This document shows, piece by piece, positions 20,836 to 26,355 of a stretch of 40,112 nucleotides of DNA. Under the pieces are notes generated by a model, which was not told the origin of the DNA, ran no database searches, and saw nothing but the letters and a program-made list of their open reading frames with translations. The translations under genes were made by a program, and so were the position numbers. Position 1 is the stretch's first letter. The number at the start of each line of letters is the position of its first letter. Origin of the DNA: a virus; IMG/VR virus record IMGVR_UViG_3300017726_002766, positions 1-40,112 of that record; one strand, given 5' to 3'.

Positions 20836-21117
20836 ATGGATGAATTTTTACAGGTGGCTGAGAAGGTGGGATTTCCGATTGCAGGAGCCTTAACTGCCGG
20901 GTTCTTTATTTTTATAATTCTTAAATTTATTCTAACCGAACTTACCGGTTCTATAAAAAGTCTTAATAATTTAATAACAGGACTAGTAAATAGAATTGAT
21001 ACAATGAATAATGATATTGTTAAAATAGATACTCTTATATCGGTAGCTTTTAACAAAAAACCAAACTTAGAAAGGTTAGCTGCAGCTGACGGCAAAGAGG
21101 ACTCGCGTAAAGACTAA
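20836..21117 (+). CDS. Small membrane protein, holin/BhlA-like
   Basis: A 93-residue protein with one N-terminal membrane segment (ALTAGFFIFIILKFILTEL) followed by an amphipathic helical region (INNLITGLVNRIDTMNN-like pattern) and a charged tail. It is a diverged paralog of the next gene, and both have the VGFPIAGA / YGFPVIAA motif before the membrane segment. The topology resembles BhlA/UviB-type small holins. It is expressed late, but it is far from the endolysin. Function unknown. Confidence 0.6.
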   Translation: MDEFLQVAEKVGFPIAGALTAGFFIFIILKFILTELTGSIKSLNNLITGLVNRIDTMNNDIVKIDTLISVAFNKKPNLERLAAADGKEDSRKD

Positions 21118-21371
21118 TGGACTCGGTAGTAGATATGGTAAGCAAGTATGGCTTTCCAGTCATAGCAGCTTGCGGCTTAGGGTATTTTGTATACTACATA
21201 TGGAAGTGGGTAACAACAGAAATAAAGCCTGTAATTGAAGAGACTACCGGTAAGTTAATAGGTTTAATTGATAAGGTTCGTATGTTAGATAACGATATGA
21301 TAAGACTTACGATGAAAATAAATCTTATTACAGAGGAAAAGACCCCTAACCATCGTACAAAAAATAAATAA
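21117..21371 (+). CDS. Small membrane protein, paralog of the preceding gene
   Basis: An 84-residue protein: VSKYGFPVIAACGLGYFVYY membrane segment, a Trp-Lys-Trp boundary, then KLIGLIDKVRMLDNDMIRLT, a pattern I associate with small conserved proteins of marine T4-like phages. Its ATG overlaps the stop of the paralog by one base, so the two are coupled and may form a hetero-oligomer. It could be a holin component or a membrane anchor; neither is proven. Confidence 0.6.
   Translation: MDSVVDMVSKYGFPVIAACGLGYFVYYIWKWVTTEIKPVIEETTGKLIGLIDKVRMLDNDMIRLTMKINLITEEKTPNHRTKNK
21363..21370 (+). promoter_or_regulatory. Late promoter box before csgF
   Basis: AATAAATA, 5 bases before the ATG at 21376, overlapping the preceding stop codon. 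It opens the curli-export genes. Confidence 0.8.
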
Positions 21372-21375
21372 CTAT

Positions 21376-21843
21376 ATGAAGGCATTACTTATAGCACTCA
21401 TGATAACATCAGCAGCAGCCGATCAATTAACATTTAGATTTAAATCACCATCGTTTAATGGTGTCGGTTATAGCTCACATAAAATTAATTTAGAAAATAT
21501 TTCGGCTGCTAGAAAAAAGACTATTAGAGATGAAATTAAATCATTAGAGATTCAAGCTAATTTAGCTTCTCAACGCACTCCCTTAAATGTATTTATGACT
21601 AATTTACAGTCCCGTATTTACTCTGAACTCTCTAAGCAAGTTACAGAACAACTATTTGCAGATACAAATAATGAATCAGGTGCATTCGATCTAGACGGTA
21701 ATACTATTTCTTGGTATAAGTTAGCAAATCAAATTAATCTTACTGTAACTGATACAGAAGGGAACCTTACAACTATATTAATTCCTATTGGTTCTCTCTT
21801 ACTACCGGAGCCTCCTGCTAATGAAACAACTTCTAACAACTAG
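21376..21843 (+). CDS. csgF: CsgF-like curli assembly protein
   Basis: A 155-residue exported protein. A signal peptide (MKALLIALMITSAAA) is followed at once by DQLTFRFKSPSFNGVGYSS, which matches the hallmark start of mature CsgF (LxFxFxNPSFxG). CsgF sits on the outside of the CsgG channel and couples secretion to nucleation of curli subunits. A middle helical region and a Pro/Glu C-terminus complete it. csgG overlaps its end by 23 bases. No CsgE is evident next to it. Confidence 0.82.
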   Translation: MKALLIALMITSAAADQLTFRFKSPSFNGVGYSSHKINLENISAARKKTIRDEIKSLEIQANLASQRTPLNVFMTNLQSRIYSELSKQVTEQLFADTNNESGAFDLDGNTISWYKLANQINLTVTDTEGNLTTILIPIGSLLLPEPPANETTSNN

Positions 21844-22621
21844 CCTTTTAAGCTCTTTTTTGCTTTTAGGTGGTTGTAGTTATATTTACAAGGATGTAAA
21901 AGAATCACCTGCTATAGCCCCGACTCCGTTAAAATCAGAGCTGGCTGAGCTACCCGTATTAGACGGCGCATCTATCTATATAGGTGTATCTGACTTTAAA
22001 GATCTAACAGGTCAGCGAAAACAATCAGATAATTATGCAAGCTTTTCCTCAGCTGTAACTCAAGGAGCTGAAGCTTGGTTAATTGAATCTTTACTAGAAT
22101 CAGGAAATTGGTTTAAAGTATTAGAAAGAGGTCAGTTAGATAGTATTATGCGCGAACGTGCAGTAGTACAACAAACAAGAGAAGACTTTACAGAAGAAGA
22201 TGATACAGGACTTCAACCTATGCTTTTTGCTGGGTTACTCATACATGGAGGCATTATTGGATATGATACTAATTACGTTACTGGTGGTATAGGAGCTTCT
22301 TATCTCGGGTTAGGAGCAGCAGAACAGTATAGAAAAGATGTAGTTACTGTTTCTATAAGATTTGTAAGTACATTAACTAGCGAAATACTTCTATCTTCAA
22401 CTGTATCAAAAACTATATATTCTGTATCGTTGGGCAGTGATGTTTTTAAATATGTTAAAAATGATATTAATCCATTAGAAGTTGAATATGGATTTGCTAA
22501 AAATGAAATGGTTTCTGTGGCTACTAGAGCTGCTATTGATTTAGCTATTATTAATATTATTAATAAAGGGGAGAAAAAGAAAATGTGGAAGTTTGTAAAT
22601 CCCCCTGCGGAAGCAAAATAA
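21821..22621 (+). CDS. csgG: CsgG-like outer-membrane curli secretion channel
   Basis: A 266-residue lipoprotein. The start at 21821 gives a proper signal peptide with lipobox LLLGGC; a longer frame from 21788 would bury it. Strong CsgG signatures are IYIGVSDFKDLTGQRK, NWFKVLERGQLDSIMRER, GGIIGYDTNYVTGGIGASYL followed by GLGAAEQYRKDVVTVSIR, and a LTSEILLSSTVSKTIYS strand. E. coli CsgG is 277 residues and forms a nonameric 36-strand pore. It overlaps csgF upstream and is followed by the curlin gene with its own late box. Confidence 0.93.
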   Translation: MKQLLTTSLLSSFLLLGGCSYIYKDVKESPAIAPTPLKSELAELPVLDGASIYIGVSDFKDLTGQRKQSDNYASFSSAVTQGAEAWLIESLLESGNWFKVLERGQLDSIMRERAVVQQTREDFTEEDDTGLQPMLFAGLLIHGGIIGYDTNYVTGGIGASYLGLGAAEQYRKDVVTVSIRFVSTLTSEILLSSTVSKTIYSVSLGSDVFKYVKNDINPLEVEYGFAKNEMVSVATRAAIDLAIINIINKGEKKKMWKFVNPPAEAK

Positions 22622-22634
22622 ACTGGTATTTTTC

Positions 22635-22642
22635 TATAAATA
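22635..22642 (+). promoter_or_regulatory. Late promoter box before the curlin-repeat gene
   Basis: Perfect TATAAATA, 5 bases before the ATG at 22648. It excludes the longer in-frame start at 22585. Confidence 0.88.
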
Positions 22643-22647
22643 TTAGT

Positions 22648-23442
22648 ATGAAGATAAAAGTATTCTCTCTCAGTATACTTGCCTCTACAGGCTTGGTTTT
22701 TGGTAGTAATGAAATTTACCTAGACCAGATTGGTAGTGCAGGTGTTTTTAATATATCGCAAATTGGATCTGCAAACAAATTAGGTGAAGGTACAAACCGG
22801 TCACGGATTGAAGGTGAAGAGGTTATATTTAACGTAGCTACTATCGGTAATCAAAACTTAGTAGATATTGATTCAGTTGGTAACGAAGAAGAAGTAAATC
22901 TTCAAGTTGAGGGAGATGCTAATGAGGTAATATTAGCTCTTGAAGGAGATCAAAACACTGTAAATACCTTTGTAGCAGGTGATTCTAATAATGTGTTAAT
23001 TGCAGGTAATCAGGAAGATTCAGAAAAAGCTTCTGTTAATAACGGCGTAATTAATCTTAATGTAGAAGGTGCTTCAAACGATGTTGAGTTACTTCTTTTT
23101 GATACTTCTTATACCTTTACGGATTACTTTATCGGAGGATCTTTAAACACTATTAGTTCTTATCAAGAAGGTCATGGTGGTTTGATTGGTCACTCGCAAT
23201 TAGTTGATGTTTACGGAAGTAGTAATAATTTATTAATATCACAAGTAGGTTCTGAGAGTCAATTCATAGAACTTTCTATTCTTGGAAATGAAAACAACTA
23301 TCAAATATACCAAACCGATGGTGGGTTTGATCCAACATATATGCCAGAGCAAACTGATAATTCAGTTACTCCAGTTAATGACTACTCCAATCCATCAGGC
23401 CCTCCTCATGATGGTCCGCCTCAAATCCTCGTTAATCCTTAG
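22648..23442 (+). CDS. Curlin-repeat (CsgA/CsgB-like) amyloid subunit
   Basis: A 264-residue exported protein: signal peptide MKIKVFSLSILASTGLVFGS, then degenerate curlin repeats of roughly 20 residues with the N-x-(hydrophobic)-x-Q-x-G pattern, for example YLDQIGSAGVFNISQIGSAN, VATIGNQNLVDIDSVGN, LALEGDQNTVNTFVAGDSNN and NNLLISQVGSESQFIELSI. A Pro/Asn-rich tail ends the protein. Some repeats lack the Gln, so this is an atypical curlin, perhaps nearer CsgB. It should be exported by the upstream CsgG. The FecR gene begins inside its 3' end. Confidence 0.8.
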   Translation: MKIKVFSLSILASTGLVFGSNEIYLDQIGSAGVFNISQIGSANKLGEGTNRSRIEGEEVIFNVATIGNQNLVDIDSVGNEEEVNLQVEGDANEVILALEGDQNTVNTFVAGDSNNVLIAGNQEDSEKASVNNGVINLNVEGASNDVELLLFDTSYTFTDYFIGGSLNTISSYQEGHGGLIGHSQLVDVYGSSNNLLISQVGSESQFIELSILGNENNYQIYQTDGGFDPTYMPEQTDNSVTPVNDYSNPSGPPHDGPPQILVNP

Positions 23443-24331
23443 TATATTAACTTGCTTATTAAGTAGTAGCTTAGCTGAAGTTGGTAACGTAACTGCTCAA
23501 ACAAGAGCAGCTCAAATAACTCGTAAGGGTGATAAGATTTTAACAGAAGTTGATACTCCTGTTGAAATGCGCGATCTCATACAAACATTAAAAGGTAGAG
23601 CTGATATAAAGTTTGTAGATGATACTAAAGTAAGTGTTACTGAGTATTCTAAACTTATAATTGATGAGTTTGTTTATAACCCAGAGAAAAAAACAGGTAA
23701 ACTATCTCTTAAAGCTGCGTTAGGTACTATCAGATATTCATCAGGTAAGATAGCTAAAAATTCTAGAAAAAATGTAAAGATAAAATCACCTACCGCGTCG
23801 GTATCTGTTAGAGGTACAGATTTTACTATGAACGTTCAAGAGGACGGGGCAAGTAGTTTTATACTTTTACCTTCAACAGATGAGGCAGGTAAAAGTTATG
23901 TCGGGTCAATTGATGTATCAACATTAGGAGGTACAGTAACTCTTAATCAAGCATATGAAGCAACTACAGTAACAACTGCTATAGCTCCTCCTACACCTCC
24001 TCAAGTTATACAGCAAGATGGCCCTGCTGAGCCTAAAAAGAAAAACAATAACGATAATAATGAAAATAATAATAACGCAGGAGATAATGAAGATGACAAA
24101 GAAAATTTTGATGATATAAAAATTAAAAGAAAAGAAAAACAACTAATGAATACTTTTTTAAAGATGGAGGATGGTAGATATGTATTCTTTTCTAAAGATA
24201 AGGATAATATGATATCATTAATTGTTGAAGATGGTAGTAATGTTACTGTTAATTATGATAATAAAGGTAGCATTATAAATGCTAAATTTAACTCCGGTAA
24301 CAATGTTCAATTTAATATAAAACAACAATGA
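23408..24331 (+). CDS. Exported FecR-domain protein
   Basis: A 307-residue protein starting at ATG 23408 (or 23411), which gives the signal peptide LKSSLILSILTCLLSSSLAE. The earlier in-frame ATG at 23282 lies in the middle of the curlin gene. The FecR domain spans about residues 30-160: KGDKILTEVDTPVEMRDLIQ, IKFVDDTKVSVTEYSKLIID, KLSLKAALGTIRYSSGKI, and SPTASVSVRGTDFTMNV. An Asn/Asp/Lys-rich linker precedes a small C-terminal beta region. FecR proteins of this exported type often accompany CHASE2 cyclases in bacteria. It overlaps both neighbours (curlin by 35 bases, cyclase by 4), so translation is coupled. Confidence 0.85.
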   Translation: MMVRLKSSLILSILTCLLSSSLAEVGNVTAQTRAAQITRKGDKILTEVDTPVEMRDLIQTLKGRADIKFVDDTKVSVTEYSKLIIDEFVYNPEKKTGKLSLKAALGTIRYSSGKIAKNSRKNVKIKSPTASVSVRGTDFTMNVQEDGASSFILLPSTDEAGKSYVGSIDVSTLGGTVTLNQAYEATTVTTAIAPPTPPQVIQQDGPAEPKKKNNNDNNENNNNAGDNEDDKENFDDIKIKRKEKQLMNTFLKMEDGRYVFFSKDKDNMISLIVEDGSNVTVNYDNKGSIINAKFNSGNNVQFNIKQQ

Positions 24332-26355
24332 AGATCTTTAACCTAAAAAACTATGCTATATGCTTAGTAGTAACTATAATATTTACTTGTTTGCGTATAC
24401 TCGACCCTTTCTTTATAGAAACAGCAAGATTAAAAGGATTAGATTATTATCAAAATAATCAAGAAAAGGTTAAGTCTGAAAATATTGCTATAATAGAAAT
24501 AGATGAAGATAGTTTAGATGAATACGGGCAATGGCCTTGGAAACGTGATCTTATAGCACAGGGTATAATAAAGGCTTATGAAAGTGGAGCGCAATTGGTA
24601 GTAGTACCTATTCTATTTGCTGAAAAAGATAGATTAGGAGGAGATAAAGAGCTTATAGAGTTGTTGACTGAAGCACCGGTTATTATTGGTCAATCAGCAA
24701 GTACAAGAGGTAAAGGAGATCCAGTACCTAGAGGGTTAGCTACTATAGGAGAAAGTTTAGATGGTTGGTTGTTTGATTACCCTGAAGCTATAGGACCTGT
24801 AAAGGAGCTCGGAGAAGTTGCTGCTGGTGTAGGTATGGTACTTACTGCTCCTGAGTTAGATGGAGTAGTGAGAAGAATGCCGTTAGTTATTCAGATTAAG
24901 GGAGAAGCTTATCCAACAATACCTTTAGAAGTTATAAGGTTGTTTTCAGGGGAGCAGTCATATCAAGCTAAAGTAAGTGAAATAGGAGTTGAGGCTATAA
25001 GAGTGCCGGGTTTTGATCCAATAGTAACAGATGAAAATTCTAGAGTGTGGGTGAACTTTAAATATGAGTTTGATAAGGTTTCTTTTAAAGATGCAGATTG
25101 GTCTGCTGTGCAAGATAAGATAGCTATAATAGGTATAACGGGAGAAGGTTTAGCTAATACTATAGCTACTTCAACAGGTATTAGTTACGGTCATGAGGTA
25201 AATTGTCACGCTTTGCAAATGATAATAGATGAAAATCGTTTAGAAAGAAATAAAGAATTTTTTATGCATGAATTATTAGTTACCGCTGGTATATGCTCCA
25301 TTATTATTATCGGAGCGTTATGGTTACCATATTTTATTAGTTTAGCGCTTTGCTTAGTAAGTATTAGTTCTTTACCGTGGTTAGGTAATTTATTATTTGA
25401 GCAAGGTAAACTATATGATTTTACATGGCCTATAGCTACTATTTTTATAACATGGTCAGCTGCTACTTTTGTAAGATTTGTTCAAGAAAATAAAACAAAG
25501 AAGCTTATTAAGAATCAATTTGAGCATTATTTAGCTCCATCGATAGTAAGACTATTACAAAAAAATCCTCAAAAATTACAGTTAGGTGGAGATACTAGAG
25601 AGCTATCCATTTTATTCAGCGATTTAAGAGATTTTACAACAATAAGCGAAACGTTTAAATCCAACCCTCAAGAGCTAACTGATCTTATAAATAAATACCT
25701 TACTCCTATGACTGGTTGTGTTATAGAAAATAACGGAACAGTTGATAAATTTATAGGGGACGCATTAATGGCTTTTTGGAATGCTCCTATAGATGATGAA
25801 GAACATAGAGATAACGCATTGGAATGTGCTATTCAAATGTTTGAATTGTTAGAAAAGCTTAACGTTGATTTAAAGGATAAAAATTTAGAGCTTAAAATGG
25901 GTATAGGTATCAATACTGGAGATGTTGTTGTCGGTAATATGGGTTCCAATCAACGATTTGATTACACCTGTTTAGGAGATGCAGTTAATCTAGCTGCTAG
26001 ATTAGAAAGTCAAACTAAAAATTACAAGGTAGGTATATTAGTAGGTGAAGGTACGGTTAAAGGTAATGACACTTTCAACTTTTACGAGCTCGATACAATT
26101 GCAGTTAAAGGTAAAACTGAAGGAGTAAAAATTTATACGATACTTCCCACGTTGAAAAATAAGCCCAATCATGATGCCTTTTTAACTGCATATAAAAAGC
26201 AGGAATGGGATAATGCTTTAAAACATGCTGAGTTTAATAAGAGAGGAATACCTCAACTATCAAACTATTACGTTATGATGTCAGATAGAATTCTAGAATT
26301 AAAAGAGCAAAATCCTATAGATTGGGATGGTATTTACCGATCATCATCAAAATAA
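24328..26355 (+). CDS. CHASE2-domain class III adenylate cyclase
   Basis: A 675-residue membrane cyclase. An N-terminal membrane segment (residues 8-24) leads to a periplasmic CHASE2 sensor (about 40-300, with AIIEIDEDSLDEYGQWPW and DKIAIIGITGEG). Membrane helices follow at about 313-385, then the cyclase domain (about 420-610). Catalytic residues are present: metal ligands Asp432 (FSDLRDFT) and Asp478, Lys474 in VDKFIGDALMAFW, and Asn554/Arg558 in LGDAVNLAARLE. It should therefore be active and make cAMP in the infected cell. ATG overlaps the FecR stop (ATGA). A phage-borne signalling enzyme of this type is unusual. Confidence 0.93.
   Translation: MKIFNLKNYAICLVVTIIFTCLRILDPFFIETARLKGLDYYQNNQEKVKSENIAIIEIDEDSLDEYGQWPWKRDLIAQGIIKAYESGAQLVVVPILFAEKDRLGGDKELIELLTEAPVIIGQSASTRGKGDPVPRGLATIGESLDGWLFDYPEAIGPVKELGEVAAGVGMVLTAPELDGVVRRMPLVIQIKGEAYPTIPLEVIRLFSGEQSYQAKVSEIGVEAIRVPGFDPIVTDENSRVWVNFKYEFDKVSFKDADWSAVQDKIAIIGITGEGLANTIATSTGISYGHEVNCHALQMIIDENRLERNKEFFMHELLVTAGICSIIIIGALWLPYFISLALCLVSISSLPWLGNLLFEQGKLYDFTWPIATIFITWSAATFVRFVQENKTKKLIKNQFEHYLAPSIVRLLQKNPQKLQLGGDTRELSILFSDLRDFTTISETFKSNPQELTDLINKYLTPMTGCVIENNGTVDKFIGDALMAFWNAPIDDEEHRDNALECAIQMFELLEKLNVDLKDKNLELKMGIGINTGDVVVGNMGSNQRFDYTCLGDAVNLAARLESQTKNYKVGILVGEGTVKGNDTFNFYELDTIAVKGKTEGVKIYTILPTLKNKPNHDAFLTAYKKQEWDNALKHAEFNKRGIPQLSNYYVMMSDRILELKEQNPIDWDGIYRSSSK

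Follow-up and report, generated by a model that had tools for sequence, protein, structure and literature searches.

The window, by which we mean the whole 40-kb virus record (40,112 nucleotides, ~35% GC), contains seven closely packed plus-strand genes between positions 20836 and 26355: A, B, csgF, csgG, curlin, fecR and a gene for a CHASE2 adenylate cyclase (Table 1). The last five had been recognized in the original prediction; all five open reading frames are present as described and each family assignment is supported. The gene overlaps it had claimed are real, spanning 23 nt between csgF and csgG, 32 nt between curlin and fecR, which starts at the ATG at 23411, and 4 nt between fecR and the cyclase gene. 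Two small membrane-protein genes directly upstream of csgF (20836-21371) had been overlooked.

Table 1. Genes of the module and late-promoter-like boxes in the window.
Feature	Position	Strand	Evidence or placement
Small membrane protein A, 93 aa	20836..21117	+	phrog_18771, E 4e-27
Small membrane protein B, 84 aa, paralogue of A	21117..21371	+	phrog_18771, E 1e-28
Late-promoter-like box AATAAATA	21363..21370	+	13 nt before csgF ATG
csgF, extracellular cap/chaperone of the curli channel	21376..21843	+	PF10614, E 8e-19
csgG, outer-membrane curli channel lipoprotein	21821..22621	+	PF03783, E 8e-48
Late-promoter-like box TATAAATA	22635..22642	+	13 nt before curlin ATG
Curlin-like repeat protein	22648..23442	+	AlphaFold2 model; Curlin_rpt in orthologues; alignment
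fecR, periplasmic FecR-domain protein	23411..24331	+	PF04773, E 7e-10
CHASE2 receptor adenylate cyclase, class III	24328..26355	+	PF05226, E 4e-36; PF00211 (Guanylate_cyc), E 2e-23

The family placements on which the original prediction hinged hold for both CsgF, directly through Pfam, and the curlin protein, through its orthologues and a structural model. By inspection, CsgF and the curlin protein carry signal peptides and CsgG an LGGC lipobox; a profile built from the phage CsgG proteins finds the E. coli CsgG structures at 1e-60. The curlin protein of the window has no Pfam match itself. The Curlin_rpt profile matches 19 of 24 aligned proteins of the same gene position (best 4e-9), and the AlphaFold2 model has 20 short β strands in a regular row (mean pLDDT 79, mostly 87-96 in the strand blocks). 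A fold search of the PDB with this model returned nothing significant. The product is predicted to be a curlin-like β-solenoid. The block has the CsgG channel, CsgF and a curlin-repeat subunit of a type VIII (curli) system, all shared with the classical E. coli csgDEFG-csgBAC genes, but it differs from E. coli in having no CsgD, CsgE or CsgC and in the addition of FecR and the cyclase. The CsgE gate, for which the block contains no gene, is also absent from published phage modules and alphaproteobacterial operons (PMC9599517) and is reported not to be essential (PMC7029224).

Genes A and B belong to the module. Protein A has a single N-terminal hydrophobic stretch and a conserved C-terminal D-x-R-K-D motif. 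Similarity to holins is weak: protein B matches holin phrog_4898 at E 0.004, 10 of 29 members of the A/B family match it weakly (best E 0.001), and the best match to YvrJ is at E 0.08. The pair adjoins the module in the cultured phages HTVC008M and Melnitz and in IMG/VR loci, mostly upstream, split around csgF in some loci and inverted beyond the cyclase gene in others. The pair occurs apart from module genes in only 5 of 80 loci found with protein B, and some of these five lie on short contigs. The "histidine kinase" reported upstream of csgF (PMC9599517), which is short and sometimes occurs twice, may be this pair.

In the model of the FecR protein, a signal helix is followed by a confidently modelled FecR domain, for which the PupR signalling domain is the closest solved fold (E 1e-3); beyond a disordered linker come C-terminal strands, which are modelled less confidently. 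Unlike a FecIRA-type system, the model includes no cytoplasmic anti-sigma part and no transmembrane helix, and the block encodes neither a sigma factor (FecI) nor a TonB receptor (FecA). The C-terminal strands end in the curlin-like motif GNNVQFNIKQQ. A curlin-like final strand (N-x-I-x-I-x-Q) is found in 44 of 46 non-redundant phage FecR tails, against a mean of 13 after shuffling; the tails compared come from related proteins, and their resemblance to curlin is at the motif level only. With curlin profiles, 48% of FecR tails and 2% of shuffles reach more than 5 bits, and the FecR protein has no match to Curlin_rpt. Among eight bacterial FecR proteins near CHASE2 genes without curli, one has the curlin-like end and seven lack it. 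That the likeness of FecR tail and curlin marks a functional link is, at present, only a hypothesis.

The extracytoplasmic CHASE2 domain of the cyclase occupies residues 17-329 (PF05226). As originally claimed, the enzyme appears catalytically intact, keeping the full adenylate-cyclase set (D432, K474, D478, T547, N554, R558). All 144 cyclases compared have the two metal-binding Asp residues and the purine Lys, and 142 have the Arg. The window cyclase has the Lys/Thr pair of class IIIb adenylate cyclases, together with the transition-state Asn. In 31 phage cyclases, including those of Melnitz (L003), L077, L087, L346 and 27 others, the purine-site Thr/Ser is changed to Asp together with a change of the transition-state Asn to Ser; the activity of these enzymes may differ. 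A search for free-standing phage cyclases of this type yielded no clear case: the loci without csg genes among the best 80 cyclase matches are, as far as visible, cut-off loci.

Late promoters and phage context

Late boxes had been claimed ahead of csgF and the curlin gene, and both are real. The T4 late box NATAAATA lies at −13/−14 of 12 of the 46 gene starts in the window, csgF and curlin included, against 0.1 in shuffles. The bare count of TATAAATA was rejected as evidence for late promoters (7 in the window, 9.2 expected by chance); the fixed spacing alone is above chance. The boxed starts are 8782, 9831, 10986, 14621, 17927, 21376 and 22648 on the plus strand and 1690, 6426, 7043, 8749 and 35855 on the minus strand. 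In 56 of the 89 phage loci, csgF is preceded by a T4-type late box at a distance of 13 nt from its ATG; of the phage curlin-1 genes fetched, that of the window alone has the box TATAAATA. A degenerate late-type box, ACTAAATA, precedes gene A. The spaced boxes support the late timing originally proposed for the module, which would be transcribed late in infection. In T4, the late box spans about −13 to −6 of the transcript, so a box at −13/−14 of the ATG implies that boxed messages would start at the ATG itself. The late messages of this phage are thus predicted to be leaderless; a Shine-Dalgarno-like motif was found at none of the 12 boxed starts.

T4-like genes flank the module on both sides, encoding tail sheath, terminase, portal, head-tail adaptor, major head protein and ribonucleotide reductase. 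The contig is a genuine marine T4-like phage; its lineage is distant from cultured phages, as the major head protein shares only ~32-36% identity with the best-ranked phage records. Rfam and tRNA scans of the window gave no matches. Curli genes are usually bacterial, which might point to an assembly that joined bacterial to phage DNA, a concern already raised with the original prediction. We consider this explanation negligible and ruled out by synteny: the same module sits between the same phage genes in six further contigs (L005, L269-L273; such labels denote contigs compared in this analysis), cultured phage genomes carry the module, and its GC content matches that of the rest of the window. 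These six contigs are the nearest relatives of the window and have the same single curlin gene.

The module in phages and in one bacterium

HTVC008M (host SAR11; gp011-gp019) and Melnitz (EXVC044M, host OM43; genes 97-104) carry the same block in the gene order of the window, including the small pair. The combination had been thought new in the original prediction; it is not, being present in these two phages and in the literature. The GenBank records of both already name CsgF, CsgG, curlin and the cyclase, and that of Melnitz also FecR. CsgF and CsgG were reported in pelagimyophages by Zaragoza-Solas et al. 2020 (PMC7029224), and Wittmers et al. 2022 (PMC9599517) described CsgA/B, FecR, adenylate cyclase and the "histidine kinase" with csgF-csgG in podo- and myophages. 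Among the papers retrieved on CHASE2 and phages, none seemed, by title and abstract, to deal with this module. This is a real and widespread system, most of which has been published, and the window holds a divergent, single-curlin version of it. The window proteins are 36-46% identical to those of HTVC008M in CsgF, CsgG, FecR and the cyclase, but curlin only 26-28%. Unlike the pelagiphage and methylophage modules, the window has no second curlin gene, has a distant head protein and has a late box before curlin as well. Our additions are the A/B genes, the constancy across loci, the cyclase residues, the csgF late box, the FecR tail and a bacterial operon described below.

To follow the recurrence of the block, we scored neighbouring genes with profile HMMs built in this analysis in IMG/VR loci found by CsgG (80), protein B (80) and the cyclase (80), and in phage-like contigs in bacterial metagenome-assembled genomes (MAGs), counting only loci with enough flank. 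The block recurs in many phage contigs. Phage csgG loci contain CsgF (161/161), curlin (164/164), FecR (135/135), the cyclase (77/78) and the small pair (30/37); as the loci partly overlap, are related and are the matches nearest the queries, these are not independent counts. Purifying selection acts on all module genes (pN/pS 0.14-0.31, relative to L269). Many ocean virus contigs carry the module, and the known hosts, SAR11 and OM43, are without curli.

A bacterial counterpart lies on a 705-kb contig of Hyphomonas sp. TMED17 (L126), where csgF, csgG, curlin, fecR and the CHASE2 cyclase gene follow one another in the order of the window, surrounded by ordinary bacterial genes of similar GC. 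The operon resembles that of the window in its five genes and their order, and the two differ in that the former is chromosomal, has ~50% GC, encodes a longer curlin, lacks A/B and has a FecR tail without the curlin-like motif at its end. In trees of CsgG, the cyclase and FecR, TMED17 joins the phages and not the other sampled bacteria. Trees of CsgG and the cyclase had been suggested as a way to the donor lineage; by these trees TMED17 may be either donor or recipient, since it stands among the phages in the CsgG tree but a tree with the phages in a single clade is not rejected (p-AU 0.21). In a search for further bacterial operons of the phage type, CsgF occurs in 29 and CHASE2 in 96 of 249 genomes of the same order, adjacent only in TMED17 among the matches listed; in 385 genomes of the class, phage-type CsgF reaches 187 bits in TMED17 and no more than 73 in any other genome. 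FecR and the cyclase have been stated to lie outside bacterial curli operons, and TMED17, a single MAG, is a counter-example. Its operon bears on the origin of the module.

FecR also accompanies CHASE2 cyclases away from curli. Of eight bacterial CHASE2 cyclases of comparable type in the taxonomic order of TMED17, six have FecR encoded no more than 5 kb away; of ~70 bacterial curli loci fetched, that of TMED17 alone contains it. FecR-domain genes near CHASE2 cyclases, as in the window, are found in Caulobacterales and Campylobacterota (PMC9239204), and unlike the window these pairs have no curli genes nearby. Because FecR accompanies CHASE2 in bacteria and rarely curli, the phage FecR is better read as a partner of the cyclase than as an iron regulator.

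Interpretation of the module

We propose that the phage carries a late type VIII (curli) export module joined to a FecR/CHASE2 envelope cAMP sensor, a reading to which we give about an even chance. From what is known of the families, CsgG would form the outer-membrane channel late in infection with CsgF as its cap, and curlin exported by Sec would cross CsgG to form β-solenoid fibres or a surface layer. A sensor made up of FecR in the periplasm and the CHASE2 cyclase in the inner membrane would convert the state of the envelope into cytoplasmic cAMP. A and B may serve to anchor or gate the system, or they may contribute to the timing of lysis. The likeliest benefit would be an altered surface of the infected cell that excludes other phages or holds neighbouring cells close. 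Fibres, aggregation and a block to superinfection, as in the original prediction, are plausible and have largely been proposed before (PMC7029224, PMC9004378, PMC9599517). The present analysis extends the five-gene block to a defined late module of seven or eight genes, whose testable joints are the A/B proteins, FecR tail and curlin, FecR and CHASE2, and cAMP output.

This reading draws on the family matches, the curlin model, the constancy of the module, the csgF late box, the conserved catalytic residues, purifying selection, the FecR-CHASE2 pairing, the curlin-like FecR tails and the TMED17 operon. Weighed against it are the lack of clumping reported for Melnitz-infected cells (PMC9004378), the absence of CsgE, the motif-level likeness of the tail and the 31 cyclases with Ser. 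As the link between export and sensing, we favour a C-terminal strand of FecR that would bind curlin on its way out or at the base of the fibre; cyclase activity would then be set by curlin export or its backlog. A self-sensing curli system of this kind, in which the strand docks on curlin and reports export to the cyclase, to be answered with cAMP, is a tentative suggestion, possible yet unlikely as a whole, and it is the part of the favoured mechanism most worth testing.

Other readings give the same genes different work. CsgG and CsgF might form a pore that depolarises or perforates the envelope when infection ends, perhaps together with the holin-like A/B proteins; for Melnitz CsgGF, such a role in lysis was suggested by Buchholz et al. 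2022 (PMC9004378), and the link to A/B is our own. The late box at csgF, the module-linked small membrane proteins with their weak holin similarity and the lack of clumping with Melnitz are consistent with such a timer. We nonetheless regard it as unlikely, since it leaves the universal curlin and FecR and the near-universal cyclase unexplained and since the best holin match reaches only E 0.001. Alternatively, curlin could serve as a surface shield or adhesin while the cyclase pair reprograms the host independently, FecR not sensing curlin. Bacterial FecR-CHASE2 pairs without curli indicate that coupling is not required; against this, the phage FecR gene always accompanies curli genes and its tail is curlin-like, and we judge this reading unlikely, slightly more so than the lysis timer.

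A role without fibres, in which CsgG admits larger solutes and FecR/CHASE2 tunes host metabolism through cAMP, continues earlier proposals of uptake (PMC7029224, PMC9599517). The missing CsgE periplasmic gate suggests that the pore may be open, and the cyclase has kept its catalytic residues. A curlin gene in every one of the scored loci with enough flank, under purifying selection, is hard to reconcile with this idea, which we judge the least likely of these three.

Variant and misplaced loci

Two phage loci depart from the common pattern. L072 (IMGVR_UViG_3300047457_001050) has csgF, csgG, curlins and FecR and is without the cyclase or the small pair, a combination seen in no other locus with enough flank. 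In L275, the flanks and A/B are nearer the window than those of other relatives, whereas csgF to fecR are farther (curlin 40% identity), and this part looks as if it had been exchanged.

A csgG match in Salmonella phage S.Kent was set aside as an unverified 1.5-kb fragment, probably of host DNA. Contigs L085, L087, L088, L090, L096, L109, L112, L139, L141 and L149, in MAG bins of Bacteroidota, Synechococcus, Pirellulales, Rhodobacteraceae and Pelagibacter, also carry curli genes of the phage type, and most of them have the A/B pair too; these are probably misbinned phage contigs.
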